DNA of 38,806 nt from Acidobacteria bacterium 13_1_20CM_2_55_15 (GTDB taxonomy: Bacteria; Acidobacteriota; Terriglobia; 20CM-2-55-15): the NCBI GenBank assembly GCA_001920875.1, contig MNKP01000044.1:1-38806 (forward strand), in the 5' to 3' direction. The position numbers were made by a program, and so were the translations under genes. Within the stretch, counting starts at the first letter, position 1. Each line of letters starts with the position of its first letter. Positions 4,716 through 29,438 of the stretch are shown here, piece after piece. The notes beneath the pieces were generated by a model. The model searched no databases and was not told where the DNA came from. It saw only the letters and a list, made by a program, of their open reading frames with translations.

Positions 4716-5479
4716 GGTCTAGGCTGCGTTGCCCCTGGAACGCCAAACACCGTTGGAGCACCGAACATATTCAAATTGTTCTGATTGTTTTGGGGCGCCC
4801 CAAACGGGCTAGGCGTCCCGAACGGGTTAGGTGTCCCGAAGGGGGTGGGCGTGGGGGTCCCTCCGACTGTGCCTGGCTGGTTCAGCCGTTGATCGGGAAA
4901 CAGAGGACTCTGCTGCGCTGGTGCAGGTGCAGGGACAATTTGGGGCACAGGTTGGCCGGCGCGCGGATTTGCGATTGGTCCGAATGGCGTCTGGATAGTG
5001 GGTGGCTGCTGTTGTGGTATCGGCGGCTGGCCGGGCTGAGGCACCGGAATCTGCGGAAAATCCGGTGTGAATGGCTGTTCAACGGGCTGTGGTGAAAACG
5101 GCTGAGCCTGCGGCGCATTATAAATCGGCGCCGATTCCGCGCCGACTGGGGTCGTCTGTGACGCCGAAGTCACAATCACCCCTCGCCCTTCAACCACGAC
5201 GTAGTCCAACGGCTGCCCTTGGAATATCTTTCGAACGCCATCCTCGAGACTCAAGCCTGAAAATTTGACACTGATGTTGCGGTTCGCAAGCTCTGCCGGA
5301 ACCTTTGACTGCATGCCCGTCGCAAGGTCCAACAGGCGTAGCAATCGGCCAAGTGGAATGGTTTCGGCGTTGATGGAGAGCTTGTTATCGACGAGATCGA
5401 TTTCGGGACCTTTACCGGCGGCGAAAGCACCGGCGCTCATGGCCAGGATTACTAAAAGCGTAGCAAGCGATGATTTCAT
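4712..5479 (-). CDS. secreted STN-domain protein with proline-rich repetitive tail
   Basis: 255 residues from ATG 5479, preferred over ATG 5491 because a GGTGG stretch lies about five bases upstream. It has a signal peptide (LATLLVILAMSAGAFAA) and one secretin/TonB short N-terminal (STN) domain at about residues 35-100, with SINAETIPLGRLLRLLDLAT and NISVKFSGLSLEDGVRKIFQ. The remaining 150 residues are a Pro/Gln/Asn-rich tail ending in near-repeats such as PFGTPNPFGTPSPFGAP. STN domains occur in secretins and TonB receptors; a stand-alone one may be a periplasmic accessory of the secretin encoded at 7021-9318. That link is inferred from domain type and proximity only. Confidence 0.75.
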   Translation of the reverse strand: MKSSLATLLVILAMSAGAFAAGKGPEIDLVDNKLSINAETIPLGRLLRLLDLATGMQSKVPAELANRNISVKFSGLSLEDGVRKIFQGQPLDYVVVEGRGVIVTSASQTTPVGAESAPIYNAPQAQPFSPQPVEQPFTPDFPQIPVPQPGQPPIPQQQPPTIQTPFGPIANPRAGQPVPQIVPAPAPAQQSPLFPDQRLNQPGTVGGTPTPTPFGTPNPFGTPSPFGAPQNNQNNLNMFGAPTVFGVPGATQPRP

Positions 5480-5653: not shown

Positions 5654-7006
5654 CTACTTCGCCCCTCTACCTAAAAGCACGACCGGTACCGTTTTGAGCA
5701 AAATTTTTAAATCCAAGAGAAGGGACCAGTTGTCAATGTAGGTGAGATCGAGCTTCATCCAGTCTTCGAAGCTGACTTCGTTGCGGCCACGGATTTGCCA
5801 AAGGCAGGTCATGCCGGGCTTCATGCTCAACCGGCGGCGCTGCCAACGCTCGTAACGCGCCACTTCTTGCGGGAGCGGAGGGCGAGGGCCAACAAGGCTC
5901 ATGTGGCCTTGTAAGACATTGAAAACTTGGGGAAGTTCGTCGATGCTGCGGCGGCGGATGATTTTGCCGATCGTTGTAACCCGGGGGTCACGCGAAGATT
6001 TGAAGACCGGTCCATCCATTTCGTTGAACGTCTCCAACTCGACGCGGTGCTGTTCGGCGTTGTCGATCATCGAGCGGAATTTGTACATCGTGAAAACGCG
6101 CCCGTTCAAACCGCAGCGCTTCTGCTTGAACAAGACCGGACCGGGCGAGGTGAGCTTAATAAGAAGGGCAGCCGGTAACATGACCAGCGGACCAAAAATG
6201 ATGAGGATGAGCGTGGCTAAGAGAATATCGAGAATTCGCCGCACAAACATCAATCCTTCATTTGTGGGCGTCGTACTGAAAGAAAGGAGCGGAAAGCCCT
6301 CGAATTCGTCCAACTCCATTCGAGCTATCGAATGAGGAAAGAAATTCATCACCACGCGCGCCGTGACTCCAAGCTCTTCACACAGCAAGAAGATGCCGGT
6401 GTACTCATCAAGGCTTTCACGATCGATCGCAATGATCAATTCATCGACTCCTCCCTGTTCCAGGAGTGTCCGGATTTCGTCGCGGCCAAATACGCCGAGA
6501 AGTTTCAGTCCCCAAACGTCGTGGCGCTCGATCGTTCGGGCGAACTCATGTGCCGTTTTCTCATTACCCACCACAGCCACATGGCGTATGTCGAGAACAC
6601 CGTGTTTCCTGACTTTAATCAAAACGACTCGATACGAAACAAGAAGGATGTAATTGATGACCAACGTGGACAAAACGATGATGCGATTCGAGGCGTCCGG
6701 GTTCACGAAGGAAATCAAAACCGCCACGACCAGCCATGCGAAACCTATCGCCTTCGAAAGCCGTCCGATTTGATTCAGCGGCGGCAGCGTCGGCTCGGAA
6801 TAAACGCTAAAGAGGGGCAGCAACAGAGCCCAGGTTGGAAGGATGATTGCAATATGCCAAAAGTAAGTCTGAATGGGCATGACGATGTGTCCACTCAGTT
6901 CAAACAAGGAACGAAAGCGGTAAGCCAAAAAGAAACTCGCCGTTGTCAAAGCCAAGTCAGCCAGCCACAGGTTGACGGCAAAAATTCTTTTTCTTTGACC
7001 GATCAT
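5654..7006 (-). CDS. exopolysaccharide polyprenyl-phosphate sugar-1-phosphate transferase
   Basis: About 450 residues from ATG 7006. The upstream start at 7057 would overlap the divergent secretin gene and adds no conserved sequence. Membrane enzyme that starts a polysaccharide repeat unit by moving a sugar-1-phosphate onto undecaprenyl phosphate. The N-terminal half has about four or five membrane helices and a nucleotide-binding-like middle region (DIRHVAVVGNEKTAHEFART). The C-terminal catalytic domain shows the family signatures KRCGLNGRVFTMYKFRSM, RRRSIDELPQVFNVLQG, SLVGPRPPLPQE and KPGMTCLWQIRGRN. No other polysaccharide genes are adjacent, so the sugar and product are unknown. Confidence 0.9.
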   Translation of the reverse strand: MIGQRKRIFAVNLWLADLALTTASFFLAYRFRSLFELSGHIVMPIQTYFWHIAIILPTWALLLPLFSVYSEPTLPPLNQIGRLSKAIGFAWLVVAVLISFVNPDASNRIIVLSTLVINYILLVSYRVVLIKVRKHGVLDIRHVAVVGNEKTAHEFARTIERHDVWGLKLLGVFGRDEIRTLLEQGGVDELIIAIDRESLDEYTGIFLLCEELGVTARVVMNFFPHSIARMELDEFEGFPLLSFSTTPTNEGLMFVRRILDILLATLILIIFGPLVMLPAALLIKLTSPGPVLFKQKRCGLNGRVFTMYKFRSMIDNAEQHRVELETFNEMDGPVFKSSRDPRVTTIGKIIRRRSIDELPQVFNVLQGHMSLVGPRPPLPQEVARYERWQRRRLSMKPGMTCLWQIRGRNEVSFEDWMKLDLTYIDNWSLLLDLKILLKTVPVVLLGRGAK

Positions 7007-16094: not shown

Positions 16095-16236
16095 CATTCC
16101 CCTCTCCTTCTGGGAGAGGGCGGCGCAAAGCGCCGGGTGAGGGTCGCGCGAAGCGCGAGCCCGATAGGGCGAAGCCTCAAAAGAAGTCTATTCGAATCTT
16201 GAGACCCTCACCCTGCCCTCTCCCAGAGGGAGAGGG
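16095..16236. repeat. REP-like inverted-repeat element between lptE and recX
   Basis: About 140 bp. Outer arms of the CCCCTCTCC...GGGAGAGGGG type (near 16097 and ending near 16236) enclose inner inverted segments of the CCGGGTGAGGGTC type (16131-16147 against 16203-16214). The right half is nearly identical to the element at 5532-5646. It lies between divergent starts, so it may affect the promoters of both lptE-holA and recX-alaS. Confidence 0.82.
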
Positions 16237-23181: not shown

Positions 23182-23254
23182 GCCGGCGTAGCTCAGTTGG
23201 TAGAGCAGCTGATTCGTAATCAGCAGGTCAGCGGTTCAAGTCCGCTCGCCGGCT
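23182..23254 (+). tRNA. tRNA-Thr (anticodon CGT)
   Basis: 73 nt with a full cloverleaf: acceptor GCCGGCG/CGCCGGC, D stem GCTC/GAGC, anticodon stem GCTGA/TCAGC with loop TTCGTAA (anticodon CGT, reading ACG), variable loop AGGTC, T stem AGCGG/CCGCT with TTCAAGT loop. The discriminator is T and CCA is not encoded. The 3' 39 bases plus two more are repeated exactly at 30334-30374, marking this tRNA as an integration site. Confidence 0.97.
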
Positions 23255-23256
23255 TT
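23216..23256 (+). repeat. attL-like 41-bp direct repeat (tRNA-Thr 3' end)
   Basis: From the anticodon loop to two bases past the tRNA, identical over 41 bp to 30334-30374. This is the usual footprint of tyrosine-recombinase integration into the 3' half of a tRNA gene. Confidence 0.88.
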
Positions 23257-23642
23257 TATCGAAAATAAAGTACTTAATCCATTTTCGGATGGGCTTTTTT
23301 CTTACCCAAAATCGCCTGGCAACCCCCGGCAACCGTCTGCCTAACGTCTTCCTTAGAAATCGCAGGAAACGTGAATAGCTTCTCTTAATTGTTTGGCCGC
23401 GAGCTCCACCGGGTACGTCACATCCCACGTCTCGGTAGACAACCCATTCCTGATTCTTTTTAAAGAATTTGCTGCTTATGACCCTGAACGTGACTTTTCT
23501 CTTTGATGACGGGGACGGAGTTCATACGTACCGAGGTGCCCCCTCTGATCAGCCATCGTCAAAACAACTCGCACATGAGGCGCGTAGCGAGTGAAGCAAA
23601 GCTGAAAACGCGCCAACCACCGCAAATCAAAGAGAAATCGTT
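23257..23642. other. non-coding left end of the island
   Basis: No convincing gene. A weak hairpin and T-run around 23278-23300 may terminate the tRNA transcript. Two GGCAACC repeats lie at 23318-23334. A 12-bp inverted pair (23496-23507 and 23626-23637) encloses REP-like sequence. A minus-strand frame here ends in residues that are just the tRNA read backwards. Confidence 0.5.
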
Positions 23643-23948
23643 TTGATAAATGAACACACCATAAGAAACGAGATTGCCGCCGGAGAAGGTTCGAGGTCGG
23701 AATTCAAGTCATCGCTGCGATGGTATATCAACGGCGCGAAGAACGATGAAAGAATAATCGAAGTGCTTGAGGCCATCGCTGGATTCTTGAACACGGGTGA
23801 TGGCGTTCTACTAATTGGAGTGAGAGACGATGGCTCGCTTCATGGGATCGCATCGGACGGCAAGATCTACCATCAACGCTGCCAGGAAGAGTCTCGTGCT
23901 GCCGATTCGAATCTGAGAGCAGTCAGCAGCGGAGTTCTTTCCGAGTAA
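23643..23948 (+). pseudogene. AlbA_2 / Schlafen-type domain fragment
   Basis: About 101 residues from TTG 23643. The first 75 residues match the start of AlbA_2 (divergent AAA-associated, Schlafen-like) proteins: EGSRSEFKSSLRW, then EVLEAIAGFLNTGDGVLLIG and VRDDGSLHGI. In these families the domain continues for another 60-100 residues, but here similarity ends near residue 76 and the frame runs into an unrelated SlyD-type fragment. Full-length relatives act as putative regulators or nucleases and often sit in defence islands. This copy is a truncated remnant. Confidence 0.6.
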
Positions 23949-24049
23949 CACAGATCCGGGTCCATGCCGATCGTATCGTGTTGGATTTCAATCATGAATT
24001 GGCCGGACACGCGCTGACTTTCGACTTGCGTATCGTAAAGGTTGAATGA
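23930..24049 (+). pseudogene. SlyD-type FKBP peptidyl-prolyl isomerase, C-terminal fragment
   Basis: A short frame, missing its start, encodes SSFRVTQIRVHADRIVLDFN followed by HELAGHALTFDLRIVKVE and a TGA at 24047-24049. LDFNHxLAGxxLTFDxxIV is the characteristic C-terminal end of SlyD-like FKBP isomerases. About 100 upstream residues of the family are absent, so this is a gene fragment joined to the AlbA_2 fragment in another phase. Confidence 0.75.
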
Positions 24050-24465
24050 TGGCGAGGCCGATGATGCGCCGGTCCGGCCGGGCAGATGTGTGCTACACTG
24101 TTGAAGTCTTTACACCGCCCGATTCGGCCTGGAACCGACGCTCAACAAATCGGTGGAAAGACGGGAAAGTTTAGAAATCCTCCAGAGAAAACCTTCCGAC
24201 GATTTCTGCGTTACTCCTCGGCACTGTTTGGAAGGGCATGCCTTCCACTCCGCAGCGGTTGCATCGTTGCACAGGCAGCGCCCTGCGGTTTCTGCTCGTC
24301 CGGGTACAGTGGCGCAGCTTCGGTCCGAGAAATCCTAACGGGCGACGTTTGGGGCCGTCGGGACGATGAATACCAGGATGTCATTGACAATCCTGAATAT
24401 AAGCCTATGCTGGTGATAGCGGTAATTAAGCCGCACAATCCAAGTTTGGAAGCTCCTGTACGACA
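24050..24465. other. stretch without a convincing gene
   Basis: Frames in all phases here are short or have atypical composition (Ser/Arg/His-rich shadows). No tRNA, repeat or clear promoter is seen. It may contain decayed coding sequence and the leader of the following RRM gene. Confidence 0.4.
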
Positions 24466-24765
24466 ATGTCGAAAAAATTATATGTTGGGAATTTGTCGTT
24501 CCAAACGACAGAAATCTCCATCACCGAAACGTTCACACAGTGCGGTACTGTCGAATCCGTCAATATCATTACGGATCGAGACTCCGGCCGTTCGAAGGGA
24601 TTCGGATTTGTAGTCATGGACGAAGAAGGCGCCGATAAAGCCATTGCTACTCTCAACGGTTCGCAACTCGATGGACGCCCGTTGACCGTGAATGAAGCGA
24701 GGCCCATGGTTCCAAGAGATTTCGGTGGCGGCTCTCGCGGCGGCGGACGTCGAGATCAGTACTAG
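24466..24765 (+). CDS. RNA-binding protein with single RRM domain
   Basis: 99 residues from ATG 24466. One RNA recognition motif spans nearly the whole protein: RNP2 LYVGNL (5-10) and RNP1 KGFGFVVM (about 44-51), with ITETFTQCGTVESVNIITDR before it and AIATLNGSQLDGRPLTVNEA after. A short Gly/Arg-rich tail ends in RRDQY. Bacterial proteins of this size and layout bind single-stranded RNA and are often cold- or stress-induced. It lies inside the island; a frameshifted second copy is at 28157-28376. Confidence 0.93.
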   Translation: MSKKLYVGNLSFQTTEISITETFTQCGTVESVNIITDRDSGRSKGFGFVVMDEEGADKAIATLNGSQLDGRPLTVNEARPMVPRDFGGGSRGGGRRDQY

Positions 24766-24835
24766 TTTTCGCGGATCGCAGTTGCGTTCAATATGGCCGT
24801 TAAGGCCCCTCACCTACAGATCCTCTGGAGTTCTG

Positions 24836-25075
24836 ATGCGTATTGTCCAGTGGTCTAAAGTTGATGCCAGATGGTATCTCGGCGTGCTTTGCCGAAAGTG
24901 CGAAGCGCCGATCTTATTCGCACTTGATCATAGCGAAGGAGAAGCCAAGCCCGCGAGAGCCGAAAAGCTATTGCTGACCTGCAGTCGCGCGGAATGCGGA
25001 CACAAGGCCGATTACACGACGGCCAAAGTGTCACGTTTTCAGAAGTCCTCACGCGCGCAGAACGAAGCGACATGA
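24836..25075 (+). CDS. small zinc-ribbon-like protein of unknown function
   Basis: 79 residues from ATG 24836. Four cysteines in two pairs (CRKCEAPILFAL; LLTCSRAECGHKADY) suggest a zinc ribbon, with a basic C-terminal end. No wider similarity is recognised. It lies 70 bases after the RRM gene in the same direction and may be co-transcribed. Could be a nucleic-acid-binding or structural small protein. Confidence 0.55.
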   Translation: MRIVQWSKVDARWYLGVLCRKCEAPILFALDHSEGEAKPARAEKLLLTCSRAECGHKADYTTAKVSRFQKSSRAQNEAT

Positions 25076-25337
25076 TTTAGGTTATCTCGGACACGACGGG
25101 AATACGCGAGGAACTATGCAAGACGTTCTCGCAATGACTGTCATTGCGTCACTCCGGACAGCCCGATTCTTTGCCAATAACTGCATATTTTCGCTTCGGC
25201 CCGGAGCGTCAACTTTCTTTACATCGGCACGTGATAGACCGCTTGCGTCACTCTGACTGCAAACGGCAGCCCGGATGCATGATTCATGCGAGAGAAGAGA
25301 AGCGCGAAGTGTTTGCCAGACAAGAAAGGAACAAGCC

Positions 25338-25916
25338 ATGACGCGCATCATCCGAAAAATGATCGGGATATTGCTCGCGGTTGCGATCACGGCAACAGTG
25401 GGCACCGCGGCGGAAAACCACGGCAGCAAGAAAACTGCAAGTGATGGGGCCGAACCCTCCTATATGGGTGAACCGCTGAGTTATTGGCTGCGATTCATCC
25501 AGGATCGCGACAAGAACAATATGGACCTGGCCCTTGATGCGATTCGAGAACTCGGCCCAGATGCCCGTTCGGCGGTTCCTGAGCTCACGCAAATTGTGGC
25601 TGAGCCGTCCGCACCAATCGAAATCGGTGTCGATAAGCGCAGTGTGATCGCCTTCAAAATTCGGAGTATTCTTCTTCGATCCGATGCGATCGACGCTTTG
25701 GCCGCCATCGGTGAGGCTGCGACGCCATCGACTGTCCCACTGATTCAGTGGGAGCTCACAGTGCGTGTCGTTCATCGGAGTATCCGCAATACGGCAGATG
25801 ACGAACTTTTCGTTGATCTTGTATATCGGCCAGAAGCGCAATTCCGAGTTTCCGTTCTTCGCAGTTCCGGGATTTCAACAGGGGCCTTGCTATCGCCAGA
25901 GTGTCTTCACTCGTGA
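25338..25916 (+). pseudogene. secreted HEAT-repeat protein, 5' part (gene apparently broken by inversion)
   Basis: From ATG 25338, preceded by an AAGGA site, the frame encodes a signal peptide (IIRKMIGILLAVAITATVG) and HEAT-type helices: LALDAIRELGPDARSAVPEL and SDAIDALAAIGEAATPSTVP. Sequence character is coherent to about 25815 (DDELFVDLV). The remaining 33 residues to the stop are unlike HEAT repeats and lie opposite a minus-strand frame that itself encodes HEAT helices (25822-26034). The simplest reading is a single gene whose 3' part is now inverted. An alternative is two convergent, partly eroded HEAT genes. Confidence 0.6.
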
Positions 25917-26034
25917 TCGCGACACCGAGTTTTCGACTTTCATCATCGGGCGAACTCAATAGCGCGGTCACTGCTACAGCAGCATCAGGCCCAAATTGCG
26001 CAACTGCGCCAGCCACTCGCATCCGTTCGAGCAC
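25822..26034 (-). pseudogene. HEAT-repeat segment on the opposite strand
   Basis: On the minus strand this stretch encodes VLERMRVAGAVAQFGPDAAV, VTALLSSPDDESRKLGVAIT and ARPLLKSRNCEERKLGIALL. These are amphipathic helical repeats of the same style as the plus-strand gene at 25338-25815. Outside these limits the frame loses that character. The plus-strand part ends just where this part ends, consistent with an inverted internal segment of one gene. Confidence 0.55.
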
Positions 26035-26101
26035 GCTCGTGTGCGATGCAAACTGATCGGCCGATATTGGACGCTCTCTTGTAGTAGTGAAAGGATCCAT
26101 A

Positions 26102-26404
26102 ATGGAGGAAGCCTTCCGCCTGGATTTGAACCAATCGTGGGAGGCCATCGACATCAAAACCGGCCACGCGGTTCTCATCCCCAAAGGTTCCCACCGGGCC
26201 ATCCGGATGCTTCTTAAGGGCCCACACGATCAAATAGAAGAAAACTACCTGGTGGTCACGGTCCAACACGAAGGCACCCTGGTGTTGGCGGGCCTGCGCG
26301 AAGCCTTCTGGCGCCAGTGGGAAGGCCACTATATTCCAGAACTTCGCGTGACGATCCGGGAAATGACGGAGAAACCACATCCACCACTCAAAAAACGCCC
26401 ATGA
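26102..26404 (+). CDS. hypothetical protein, 100 aa
   Basis: From ATG 26102, preceded by GAAAGGA at good spacing. The protein (MEEAFRLDLNQSWEAIDIKT, ending EMTEKPHPPLKKRP) is predicted soluble with mixed strands and helices, without signal peptide or known motif. A longer minus-strand frame across the same DNA has weaker protein character. No family recognised. Confidence 0.5.
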   Translation: MEEAFRLDLNQSWEAIDIKTGHAVLIPKGSHRAIRMLLKGPHDQIEENYLVVTVQHEGTLVLAGLREAFWRQWEGHYIPELRVTIREMTEKPHPPLKKRP

Positions 26405-26456
26405 CAAAAGGGATAGCGCTTTAAACCATATCAAGCTGAATACTTAACGGAAGAAG

Positions 26457-27128
26457 ATGCCCGCCACTTCAGAACGAACCGACATCTACGACAAGCTTGG
26501 ACGGGCCTTGAAGCTGCCTGCCGGCAAACTCGCGGGCTTAGCCGATCTCCAGCGGGGCCAAGAACTCAAGAAGAAGATACAGACTTCGCCGCTGGCGTTG
26601 TTCAGAGAGGTTCGAGAGCTGCTTCTTCAAAAATGTAAGGCTGCGAAGCGAACTCAGGTCCGTGCCATTTTCGAGAAGGAACCGTTTGGCGAGCTCGAAC
26701 GCCTGATTACTCAGACGCTTCTGGAGGTCGTCAAGGTGTTGGTGAGAGAGGAACTGGGGCGCGAAAAATCGCTCCGAACCGTAGCACGAGAGAGCAATCG
26801 AAGTTATAAACAAATGCGCGTTGCCGTTCTCGAATTCCTGGATGCAGACGTTTTCAACATAACGCCGGAAAGCTGCATCGCTTTCCTCGATCCTCTGATC
26901 GTATCGTGGGACATCGATCTTGCGTCGTTCAGCCTGGAGATCGCCCTGAATTCCAGAGTTGCTCCAGGCAGATTGAAGAGGTTTGAATTTATCGAGAGGG
27001 AAGCTCGAGGGACGTCCGTTCATGAGCCGGGCCTGCGGGCATTTCTCAAAGATCGTTCTCTGAGCGGAGACGCGACCCCAGAAGAAATCGAATTTCTCAG
27101 TTCCCCGAATCCCTCATGGGCTATTTGA
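26457..27128 (+). CDS. hypothetical protein, 223 aa
   Basis: From ATG 26457, preceded by GGAAGAAG. Predicted mostly helical and soluble. The middle (VKVLVREELGREKSLRTVAR, then ESNRSYKQMRVAVLEFLDAD) could form a DNA-binding-like helical bundle. The C-terminal part has SWDIDLASFSLEIALNSRVA and a final EEIEFLSSPNPSWAI. I recognise no domain. It follows the 100-aa gene by about 50 bases and may share its transcript. Reading frame length and composition support a real gene. Confidence 0.6.
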   Translation: MPATSERTDIYDKLGRALKLPAGKLAGLADLQRGQELKKKIQTSPLALFREVRELLLQKCKAAKRTQVRAIFEKEPFGELERLITQTLLEVVKVLVREELGREKSLRTVARESNRSYKQMRVAVLEFLDADVFNITPESCIAFLDPLIVSWDIDLASFSLEIALNSRVAPGRLKRFEFIEREARGTSVHEPGLRAFLKDRSLSGDATPEEIEFLSSPNPSWAI

Positions 27129-27271
27129 GCCTAATCGCAATCTCATTCGAACAACTTTGGACAGGATCTCTGAGAAGTATTTTCACATGAAGTAGGAAGC
27201 TAACGATTTCTTGTTCGCGAGCAGCTGAAATGGTTCTCAAGCCACTTCGGCCGTCAGCGGGCAATGGTTAG

Positions 27272-27958
27272 TTAGGGGTGGAATTTCGGTTTGTTTATGG
27301 ACCGGGCGGCCTCTTGCGCTGCACGTGCCTCGTCCGCCTGTTTCTTCTGCCGCGCGAGTTCCCTTGCAGGCGCCTCCAGCTTGTCCAGCCGGTCCGCCTC
27401 AAGGCTTGCATTACGTGCCATCAGGTCAAGCATTTTGGAGAACGCGACCAGTCCGAAGGTGTTGCCGTAAGAGGACCGGTACAGGTTGTATGAATACTGT
27501 GCATCGTCCCAGCGGGCGAGGACCTTTTCCTGATCCTCATAGGTTGAGGAGTTGGAAACGGAAACCGAATCTCCCGGGGTGGTCGCAGTGCCATAGGCTT
27601 CGGAAATCGCTTCCATAATGTCGTTTGCGGTTAACCCGTTGGTCTCAGCCGGATTGTATGTAACCACCATTTTCCAAAGTTCACCATTGTAAAAGTCAAA
27701 ACGAATGCTGCGGACTGAAGTGGTTTTCGCGCCGGGCGCGGAATAACCGACTTGATTCCACTCCAGCGTTTGAATCACTGCTGGCCGCTCGTGAGTTGTT
27801 TTCGCTTCCGTGGTTTTCATCTGGATTTGCTTAGCCACGGAATCCAGGGTCATCCCAAACTGGAAATCACGATATTTGCTGAGGTCCTGCGCGATGCACA
27901 CAGACGAAAAGGAGGCGAAGCACAACACCGATATGAGGAATCTGATAGAACTGACCAT
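27272..27958 (-). CDS. secreted protein of unknown function
   Basis: About 228 residues from the ATG at 27958 (an upstream in-frame start at 28000 would bury the signal peptide). Signal peptide SIRFLISVLCFASFSSVCIA, then a mature domain beginning DLSKYRDFQFGMTLDSVAKQ with a globular middle (RSIRFDFYNGELWKMVVTYN). The C-terminal helix is rich in Ala, Arg and Glu (LARQKKQADEARAAQEAARS). The style is common among exported Acidobacteriota proteins, but no function can be given. It is transcribed opposite to its island neighbours. Confidence 0.7.
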   Translation of the reverse strand: MVSSIRFLISVLCFASFSSVCIAQDLSKYRDFQFGMTLDSVAKQIQMKTTEAKTTHERPAVIQTLEWNQVGYSAPGAKTTSVRSIRFDFYNGELWKMVVTYNPAETNGLTANDIMEAISEAYGTATTPGDSVSVSNSSTYEDQEKVLARWDDAQYSYNLYRSSYGNTFGLVAFSKMLDLMARNASLEADRLDKLEAPARELARQKKQADEARAAQEAARSINKPKFHP

Positions 27959-28156
27959 GTTTTTCTCCCTGGAGGCGATTTGATTTAGCCTGCCGATCAC
28001 CCGATGCTTCGCGAACCGCCCACGTAATCCTCCATGGTGTTCCCATTCGGCAATTGCGTTTATCCATGTCTTTGCTTAACCAGTATAGGTGAATTATTTT
28101 GCAATAGCTACGATAAATGTAGGGTATGATGCACTGGAGTTAGTTAAGGCGAGAGT

Positions 28157-28376
28157 GATCTCAAGGAATTGTTCGGCCAGGCAGGTTCAGTTGAGACCGT
28201 CCGTATCATTACGATCGGGACACCGGCCGCTCCAAGGGTTTTGCTTTCGTAGAAATGCAGGACGGCGGGACAAGGCGATTGCCGCGATGAACGGCAAGAA
28301 CTTCATGGGCCGGGATCTCACCGTCAATCAAGCTCGGCCGATGTCTTCGCGGGATAGTCGTGGGTTTAAACACTAA
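28157..28376 (+). pseudogene. frameshifted second RRM RNA-binding protein
   Basis: Reading across two frameshifts gives DLKELFGQAGSVETVRIIT, then RDTGRSKGFAFVEMQD, then AIAAMNGKNFMGRDLTVNQA and a tail ending RGFKH. This is clearly the RRM domain of the intact gene at 24466-24765, with RNP1 KGFAFVEM. One base is missing after IIT and another change disrupts the codons near 28268. The first 15 or so residues, including RNP2, are not recognisable. A dead paralogue, suggesting duplication within the island. Confidence 0.85.
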
Positions 28377-28448
28377 CCCTGAACTCAAAAGCCGTGCTGC
28401 GTTTTCCGCCAATTCATTGCTGTGGCAGCGCGACCTTCTGGAGAAGAT

Positions 28449-28841
28449 ATGTCTTTAGCAATATCGTCAAGAATCGTTTCCGGCGTCATCGTTGTTGATA
28501 TAGTCGGCAGGTTGTGCTTCCTTAACGTCACCTTGCGTGACCGTGTGAACGAATGGCTGCAAGAAGGCCACCGCGCATTCGTATTTAACTTGGCCAACGT
28601 TCCATACGCCGACAGCTTCGGCTTAGGTCAGTTGATTACTATCTCGAATTCCGTTCGAAGCAAAGGCGGCCAACTCATCCTTCTAGGGCCAACAGATCAC
28701 GTCCGGGCGCTGTTTCAGATTACAAAGCTTAATACGGTTTTTAACATTTCTACGGATGAAGCTCATGCCGTCAGAAGCGTGCGAGCAAAGGCTGTTGAAT
28801 CTGTTCCCCACGCCGTTTCGGCAAAGTCACACCTGCCGTAA
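28449..28841 (+). CDS. STAS-domain protein (anti-sigma factor antagonist type)
   Basis: 130 residues from ATG 28449 with a good GGAGAAG site. One STAS domain: IVSGVIVVDIVGRLCFLNVT, then AFVFNLANVPYADSFGLGQL and KGGQLILLGPTDHVRALFQI. The conserved Ser after Asp in the DSxGL motif (DSFGLG), phosphorylated in SpoIIAA and RsbV, is kept. Such proteins switch partners with an anti-sigma kinase to control a sigma factor or a multicomponent signalling complex. No kinase or phosphatase gene is adjacent, so its partner is unknown. Confidence 0.85.
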   Translation: MSLAISSRIVSGVIVVDIVGRLCFLNVTLRDRVNEWLQEGHRAFVFNLANVPYADSFGLGQLITISNSVRSKGGQLILLGPTDHVRALFQITKLNTVFNISTDEAHAVRSVRAKAVESVPHAVSAKSHLP

Positions 28842-28898
28842 AGCTTTATCTGCGGCGTTGCGAACAGCAGTCCAGGGGTGACTCTGCGATTTGCCTGA

Positions 28899-29438
28899 TT
28901 CGCCGCCATTTTTCCCCACCAGAACGGCGGCCAGTACACTCATGCCGCAATCTGGTCGGCGATGGCATTCGCCGGGCTCGGCGATGCTCATCGGGCATGG
29001 GAACTACTCGGCATGATCAATCCTGTAAACCACGGTGGATCTTCAAAAGCAATTGCGACGTACCGGGTGGAACCCTATGTCGTAGCCGCGGACGTTTATG
29101 CATTACCGCCCCATACGGGCAGGGGCGGATGGACATGGTATACGGGGTCGGCCGGCTGGATGTACCGTCTGATCATGGAGTCGCTCCTCGGCCTTCGCCT
29201 TGAGGTGGACAAGCTGTACTTTGCGCCTCACTTTCCTTCAACGTGGGATTCATTTGTGGTGCACTACCGCTGTCGAGAGACCGTTTACCACATCATGGTT
29301 CGACGCGCACGTCATGGACAAACGGCAACCAGCGTGACGCTTGATGGTGTCATGCAACACGGAACGTTCGTCCCTCTTGTTGACGACCGCGCGGAACACC
29401 GCGCGGAAGTGACATGTTCGCCATCAGGTACTGTTTGA
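28899..29438 (+). pseudogene. GH94 / cyclic beta-1,2-glucan synthase-type C-terminal fragment
   Basis: Open from an in-frame stop at 28896-28898 to TGA 29436-29438. It encodes HQNGGQYTHAAIWSAMAFAG, then EPYVVAADVYALPPHTGRGG, WTWYTGSAGWMYRLIMESLL and LRLEVDKLYFAPHFPSTWDS. This is the final part of the NdvB/GH94 glycoside phosphorylase-like domain; full-length proteins are many times longer. All upstream sequence is absent, so this is a relic, not a functional gene. Confidence 0.8.

Follow-up and report, generated by a model that had tools for sequence, protein, structure and literature searches.

The intragenic invertons of Chanin et al. 2024 (Nature 634:234) are reportedly segments inverted within a coding sequence, which swap a full-length reading frame for a truncated one. 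In a programmed switch, repeats are expected at the boundaries and a recombinase is often found nearby, and the recombinase may also be encoded elsewhere (PMC5903667). The microinversions of primates are flanked by short inverted repeats, which accompany all 59 definite cases, and template switching and microhomology-mediated repair were proposed as their routes (PMC8755829). In yeast genes, template switching inverts the spacers of repeats (PMC8604942).

Here we analysed a stretch of 38,806 nucleotides (the window), which lies on a 45-kb contig (C158) of an acidobacterial draft genome (3.44 Mb in 211 contigs, 82% complete). Very probably, an in-place flip of some 210-225 bp in the 3′ part broke a HEAT-like gene of 248-249 codons in the window, through a one-off replication or repair error that left a pseudogene. 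This resembles the microinversions of both studies (PMC8755829, PMC8604942): a short segment is replaced by its own reverse complement, a short inverted repeat lies close to the ends of the segment, and in yeast such segments also lie inside genes. When compared to the primate cases (PMC8755829), the segment is longer (about 210-245 bp here and 17-33 nt there), and the right arm of its repeat is positioned 16-28 nt off the boundary set by homology, whereas the inner edges of the primate repeats fall within -5 to +4 nt, with two exceptions. Unlike the microinversions of these two studies, the one in the window is bacterial and breaks a gene.

On the plus strand, the ATG at 25338 starts a frame of 192 amino acids that ends with the stop at 25914-25916 (ORF 25275-25916, with the ATG inside). 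According to the ORF list, the minus strand has an open frame over 25756-26202. Neither piece of the gene has acquired a stop in its frame. Their intact homologue is P0002, an uninterrupted protein of 249 amino acids (L005:3956-4705) from Candidatus Sulfopaludibacter sp. SbA3 (G006), which belongs to another genus of the same family as the window genome. In the tblastn search, P0002 matched the plus strand at 25437-25832 (residues 27-157, E 1.2e-36) and the minus strand at 26085-25819 (residues 143-229, E 2.9e-21). When aligned to P0002, the plus piece can be followed as far as FVDLV (residue 154), and the minus piece takes over with TSVLERM at about residue 157. The pieces therefore join at residues 154/157 in opposite orientations, with no real overlap and no sizeable gap.

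The 5′ part of the gene occupies 25338-25823 on the plus strand, where 162 codons keep the original orientation (alignment A1, P0002 residues 1-154). The 3′ part, inverted in place and with its frame still open, lies at 25823-26034 on the minus strand (P0002 residues about 157-228). The inversion would have given the plus frame a missense tail of 30 codons and a stop (25824-25916, plus strand). The possible original end of the gene may have been left in place at 26035-26084 on the plus strand, with a stop at 26082-26084 that is in phase with 25338. Judged by eye, the N-terminus looks like a signal peptide, and the product of the gene is probably exported.

The minus-strand DNA is homologous to a remnant of the gene in another genome of the window genome's own genus (G005) over 25823-26034 (71% over 213 nt) and to G006 over 25823-25971 (68% over 149 nt), while the plus-strand homology stops at 25821-25823. 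Against G006, the block scored 66 as the reverse complement and 11 in the forward orientation, and the highest score among 500 shuffles was 16. Against G005, the corresponding scores were 87 and 17, and the forward score was slightly above the highest of 500 shuffles (15). The limits of the DNA homology, together with the reverse-complement scores, establish at the level of sequence comparison that the two pieces come from neighbouring parts of a single ancestral gene and abut in opposite orientations.

The initial annotation had proposed a local inversion of about 220 bp within a single gene, and this is supported by our results. It had followed HEAT-like helices on the plus strand to about 25815; this part does match P0002, but its homology ends at 25821-25823. 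The minus-strand stretch had been placed at 25822-26034, accurate to a few bases, and the loss of repeat character of the plus frame past the junction agrees with the forward scores given above.

We considered whether the minus-strand stretch could instead be of independent origin, either as a second copy of the gene or as a small gene in its own right, and lie tail to tail by chance with a plus-strand gene that is truncated. In G005, the C-terminal part of the gene stands without the N-terminal part and starts at nearly the same residue. The minus-strand tblastn match, which begins at residue 143, also has a short and weak formal overlap with the plus part. However, the fringe of this match (residues 143-156) is weak and lacks DNA-level support, and both the DNA homology and the protein alignment put the join at 154/157. 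The G005 copy carries a frameshift and is fused to the final codons of another gene, and no second copy was found in the window genome (82% complete). A separate intact minus-strand gene, named in the initial annotation as evidence against an inversion, was not found in the genomes searched, in which the only other copy is the frameshifted G005 remnant. An independent origin of the minus-strand stretch is very improbable.

Re-inversion of 25815-26040 in silico, suggested along with the proposed inversion, turned the 192 amino acids into one continuous frame of 248 amino acids. This frame matched P0002 over residues 1-228 with 50% identity (E 2e-67 at nominal database size), so a database protein joining both parts does exist. 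The same length of 248 amino acids was obtained with three other breakpoint pairs, chosen by homology or length, while an exact flip between the arms of a 9-bp repeat (25823-26067) gave a frameshifted product of 192 amino acids. At least 225 amino acids were obtained with 319 of the 990 breakpoint pairs tried, which is about the third expected from the frame alone. Restoration of the frame is consistent with an inversion and does not prove particular breakpoints. By homology, the breakpoints fall at about 25817-25824 on the left and 26031-26043 on the right, and the best-scoring pairs are 25820/26031 and 25817/26034. Since a single full-length homologue was found (P0002, 50% identity), the breakpoints are uncertain by about 10 nt.

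Between the frame-restoring breakpoint zones, 25812-25832 and 26026-26048, inverted matches did not exceed 4 nt. Beyond residue 228, the end of the gene was unrecognisable at either candidate place. From 26068 onwards, the DNA resembled the gene tails in G005 and G006 at chance level in both semi-global alignment (684/1000 and 666/1000 shuffles reached the score) and local alignment (154/1000 and 583/1000). The 12-residue frame before 26082 likewise matched the protein tails of G006 and G005 at chance level (1344/2000 and 1947/2000 shuffles). As for the origin of 26041-26101, its best local match was 25356-25378 with a score of 14, again at chance level, as it was reached by 84 of 500 shuffles and by 90 of 496 other stretches.

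The initial annotation had reported no clear flanking inverted repeat, which holds only in part. A perfect 9-bp pair is present close by (pair I15 of the 16 inverted pairs in a list covering 1.3 kb), spanning 245 bp overall. Its left arm, ATATCGGCC at 25823-25831, is positioned on the left breakpoint and starts exactly where the minus-strand DNA homology to both relatives (G005 and G006) ends. The right arm, GGCCGATAT at 26059-26067, is found 16-28 nt outside the right breakpoint as placed by homology. Repeats of at least 9 nt between zones of the same size were found in 25/3000 random window pairs and 11/3000 shuffles for narrower zones, and in 36/3000 and 31/3000, respectively, for wider zones. 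Chance would therefore rarely produce a nearby 9-bp repeat (about 0.4-1.2%, with zones that were chosen once the repeat was known).

These observations bear on a variant of the one-off inversion, in which the segment inverted precisely between the 9-bp arms (25823-25831 / 26059-26067) through a template switch or strand annealing, and the gene was frameshifted before or soon after. In addition to the left arm at the homology limit and the improbable position of the repeat, the two arms are paired with each other in the fold predicted for the single strand (z -1.9; equalled or surpassed by 9 of 200 shuffles). All 59 definite microinversions of the primate study likewise have short inverted repeats at their flanks (PMC8755829). 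However, an exact inversion at the repeat leaves 20 nt extra when compared to G006 (hand count) and a broken frame at the left junction, and among 3150 breakpoint pairs ordered by their likeness to G006 it comes 2397th. We regard this variant as possible but doubtful. The 9-bp repeat may be a footprint of the event, an older repeat with a later indel, or a product of chance.

A different reading is a phase-variable intragenic inverton, in which a site-specific recombinase flips the segment and alternates between the full-length protein of 248 amino acids and the truncated one of 192. Both pieces are open, the re-inverted frame is 248 amino acids long compared to 249 in P0002, and the perfect 9-bp repeat with its 245-bp span lies near both ends. 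The genome also has eight matches to tyrosine recombinases (PF00589) and one to Transposase_20 (PF02371, on C199), a family that presumably includes Piv-type invertases. All of these are on other contigs, and serine recombinases (PF00239) had no match in the genome, so that none of the three recombinase families tested is present on the 45-kb contig. As in the invertons of Chanin et al. 2024, the inverted segment is within a coding sequence and a full-length frame stands against a truncated one. Unlike in those invertons, the segment was seen in one orientation here, the contig is without the tested recombinase families, and an exact flip at the candidate repeat yields 192 amino acids with a frameshift instead of the full frame. 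Moreover, inverted matches around the breakpoints that restore the frame reach no more than 4 nt, and in the five other genomes of the genus that were searched the gene was either absent from the matches (four) or broken (one). As recombinases may be encoded elsewhere, a switch is conceivable but very unlikely. In that case, a recombinase from another part of the genome would reversibly switch an exported HEAT-like protein from within its gene, and the assembly would have caught the off state.

An assembly or amplification artefact is likewise a very unlikely explanation. The assembly is a draft of 211 contigs with 82% completeness, but no second copy of the gene that could confuse it was found. 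When a k-mer assembler is misled by repeats, it does not produce a two-junction inversion that preserves length and shares at most 9 bp, and chimaeras that arise in amplification usually show a single junction.

The one-off inversion that we favour would be a rare replication or repair error, either a polymerase template switch or microhomology-mediated repair between strands. It would also be recent enough for both pieces to stay open. In the plus part, the encoded residue is shared with P0002 of G006 at 76 of 152 aligned codons, and mismatches to G006 at the first, second and third codon positions number 54, 40 and 82. In the minus part, the encoded residue is shared at 48 of 84 codons, and the mismatches, counted in the pre-inversion frame, number 28, 22 and 49. 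The excess at third positions in both pieces, in the pre-inversion frame, implies that most of the divergence predates the flip. We infer that the gene diverged while it was coding and flipped late. The outcome would be a pseudogene, which may still make a truncated product of 192 amino acids. The inversion probably survived because the gene is dispensable, as it is intact in one of 11 genomes of the order.

To follow the gene outside the window, P0002 was searched in 399 genomes sampled from the class and in 11 genomes of the order, and matches were found in the same three genomes both times (the window genome, G005 and G006). The N-terminal part matched two of 101 genomes (own and relatives), namely the window genome and G006. 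Within the 11 genomes of the order, several of which are incomplete, the gene is intact in G006. In the other five genomes of the genus that were searched, it was not found in four and was broken in one. Genome contig scans, which find close relatives only, gave no further homologue for the window part and only the G006 record for P0002, and a scan of viral contigs, with the same reach, gave no match. The HEAT-like gene is rare and decaying, since the only other copy besides G006 in the 11 genomes of the order is the frameshifted remnant in G005.

This remnant is C-terminal (residues about 155-241) and lies on the minus strand at L030 (G005:C552) 6500-6800. It directly adjoins the final codons of an acyltransferase gene; in the relatives of this acyltransferase in G002, G003, G006 and G008, other DNA follows within the 150 nt examined. 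The remnant starts at about residue 155, within a few residues of the break in the window gene. Because the G005 remnant extends beyond residue 228 into a tail of its own, we treat the shared start point, for which we have no explanation, as a coincidence. A single ancestral event behind both genomes was rejected by the same reasoning, as G005 runs on to residue 241 and the window block is cut at about 228.

Next to the intact homologue, G006 has a long inverted repeat at L005 about 4828-4955, just downstream of the gene, with arms of about 45-50 nt (by eye) and a short spacer. It could be a mobile hairpin element.

The HEAT name was taken over from the initial annotation, where it is a fair description as "HEAT-like", that is, a label by resemblance and not a demonstrated membership. 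Pfam HEAT models matched neither of the pieces (E up to 1) nor P0002 (E up to 10), and no NCBIfam match was near the cut-off. The small profile A1, searched in 396 genomes sampled from the phylum, matched three, which were the window genome, G422 (E 2.3e-5) and G594 (E 1.8e-5). Both of the latter proteins carry Pfam HEAT_2 (PF13646) above the curated cut-off; the A1 match overlaps the HEAT_2 stretch in G594 and ends about 30 residues before it in G422. The AlphaFold model of P0002 is mostly helix, with 10 helices, at low confidence (mean pLDDT 51.6, pTM 0.34). The gene thus resembles HEAT-repeat proteins (HEAT_2, PF13646) in its helical-repeat look and in the reach of A1 to HEAT_2 carriers, and differs from them in that the window pieces and the intact homologue reach no HEAT model.

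Around the locus, at 23182-29438 of the window, a tRNA-Thr is followed by a stretch with partial genes, among them a partial AlbA_2 domain (23643-23948) and a C-terminal fragment of GH94 (28962-29438). The tRNA-Thr together with the partial genes could be an old integration site. The tRNA-Thr and the AlbA_2 and GH94 fragments are in keeping with a decaying island, which makes the earlier description of the surroundings as such plausible.

Synteny with the stretches of G003, G005, G006 and G000:C137 beyond the HEAT-like gene is limited to the neighbour at 26102-26408 (G003 and G000:C137), a 40-bp match and a diverged end of an outer-membrane-protein gene in G003. The neighbour is a small gene with no family assigned; its homologue in G003:C68 is 84% identical in DNA, and a second, diverged copy is found in the window's own genome (G000:C137, 73%). 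In both, the DNA homology begins at the ATG. The 40-bp stretch is at 16149-16188 of the window and is 95% identical to G003:C68 DNA (L028 4097-4136). Further downstream, the stretch 26448-26999 belongs to a gene at 26457-27128 whose family is present in all six genomes of the genus searched, with as many as three long copies that are 73-79% identical in DNA and no Pfam family above the cut-off.

If the segment were reversible, the locus would be an intragenic switch in an acidobacterium. If the inversion was a one-off event, it would be a clean natural case of a bacterial gene broken by an inversion of about 220 bp, and not by a stop or a frameshift. Gene callers could hide such inversion damage as two small hypothetical genes on opposite strands.
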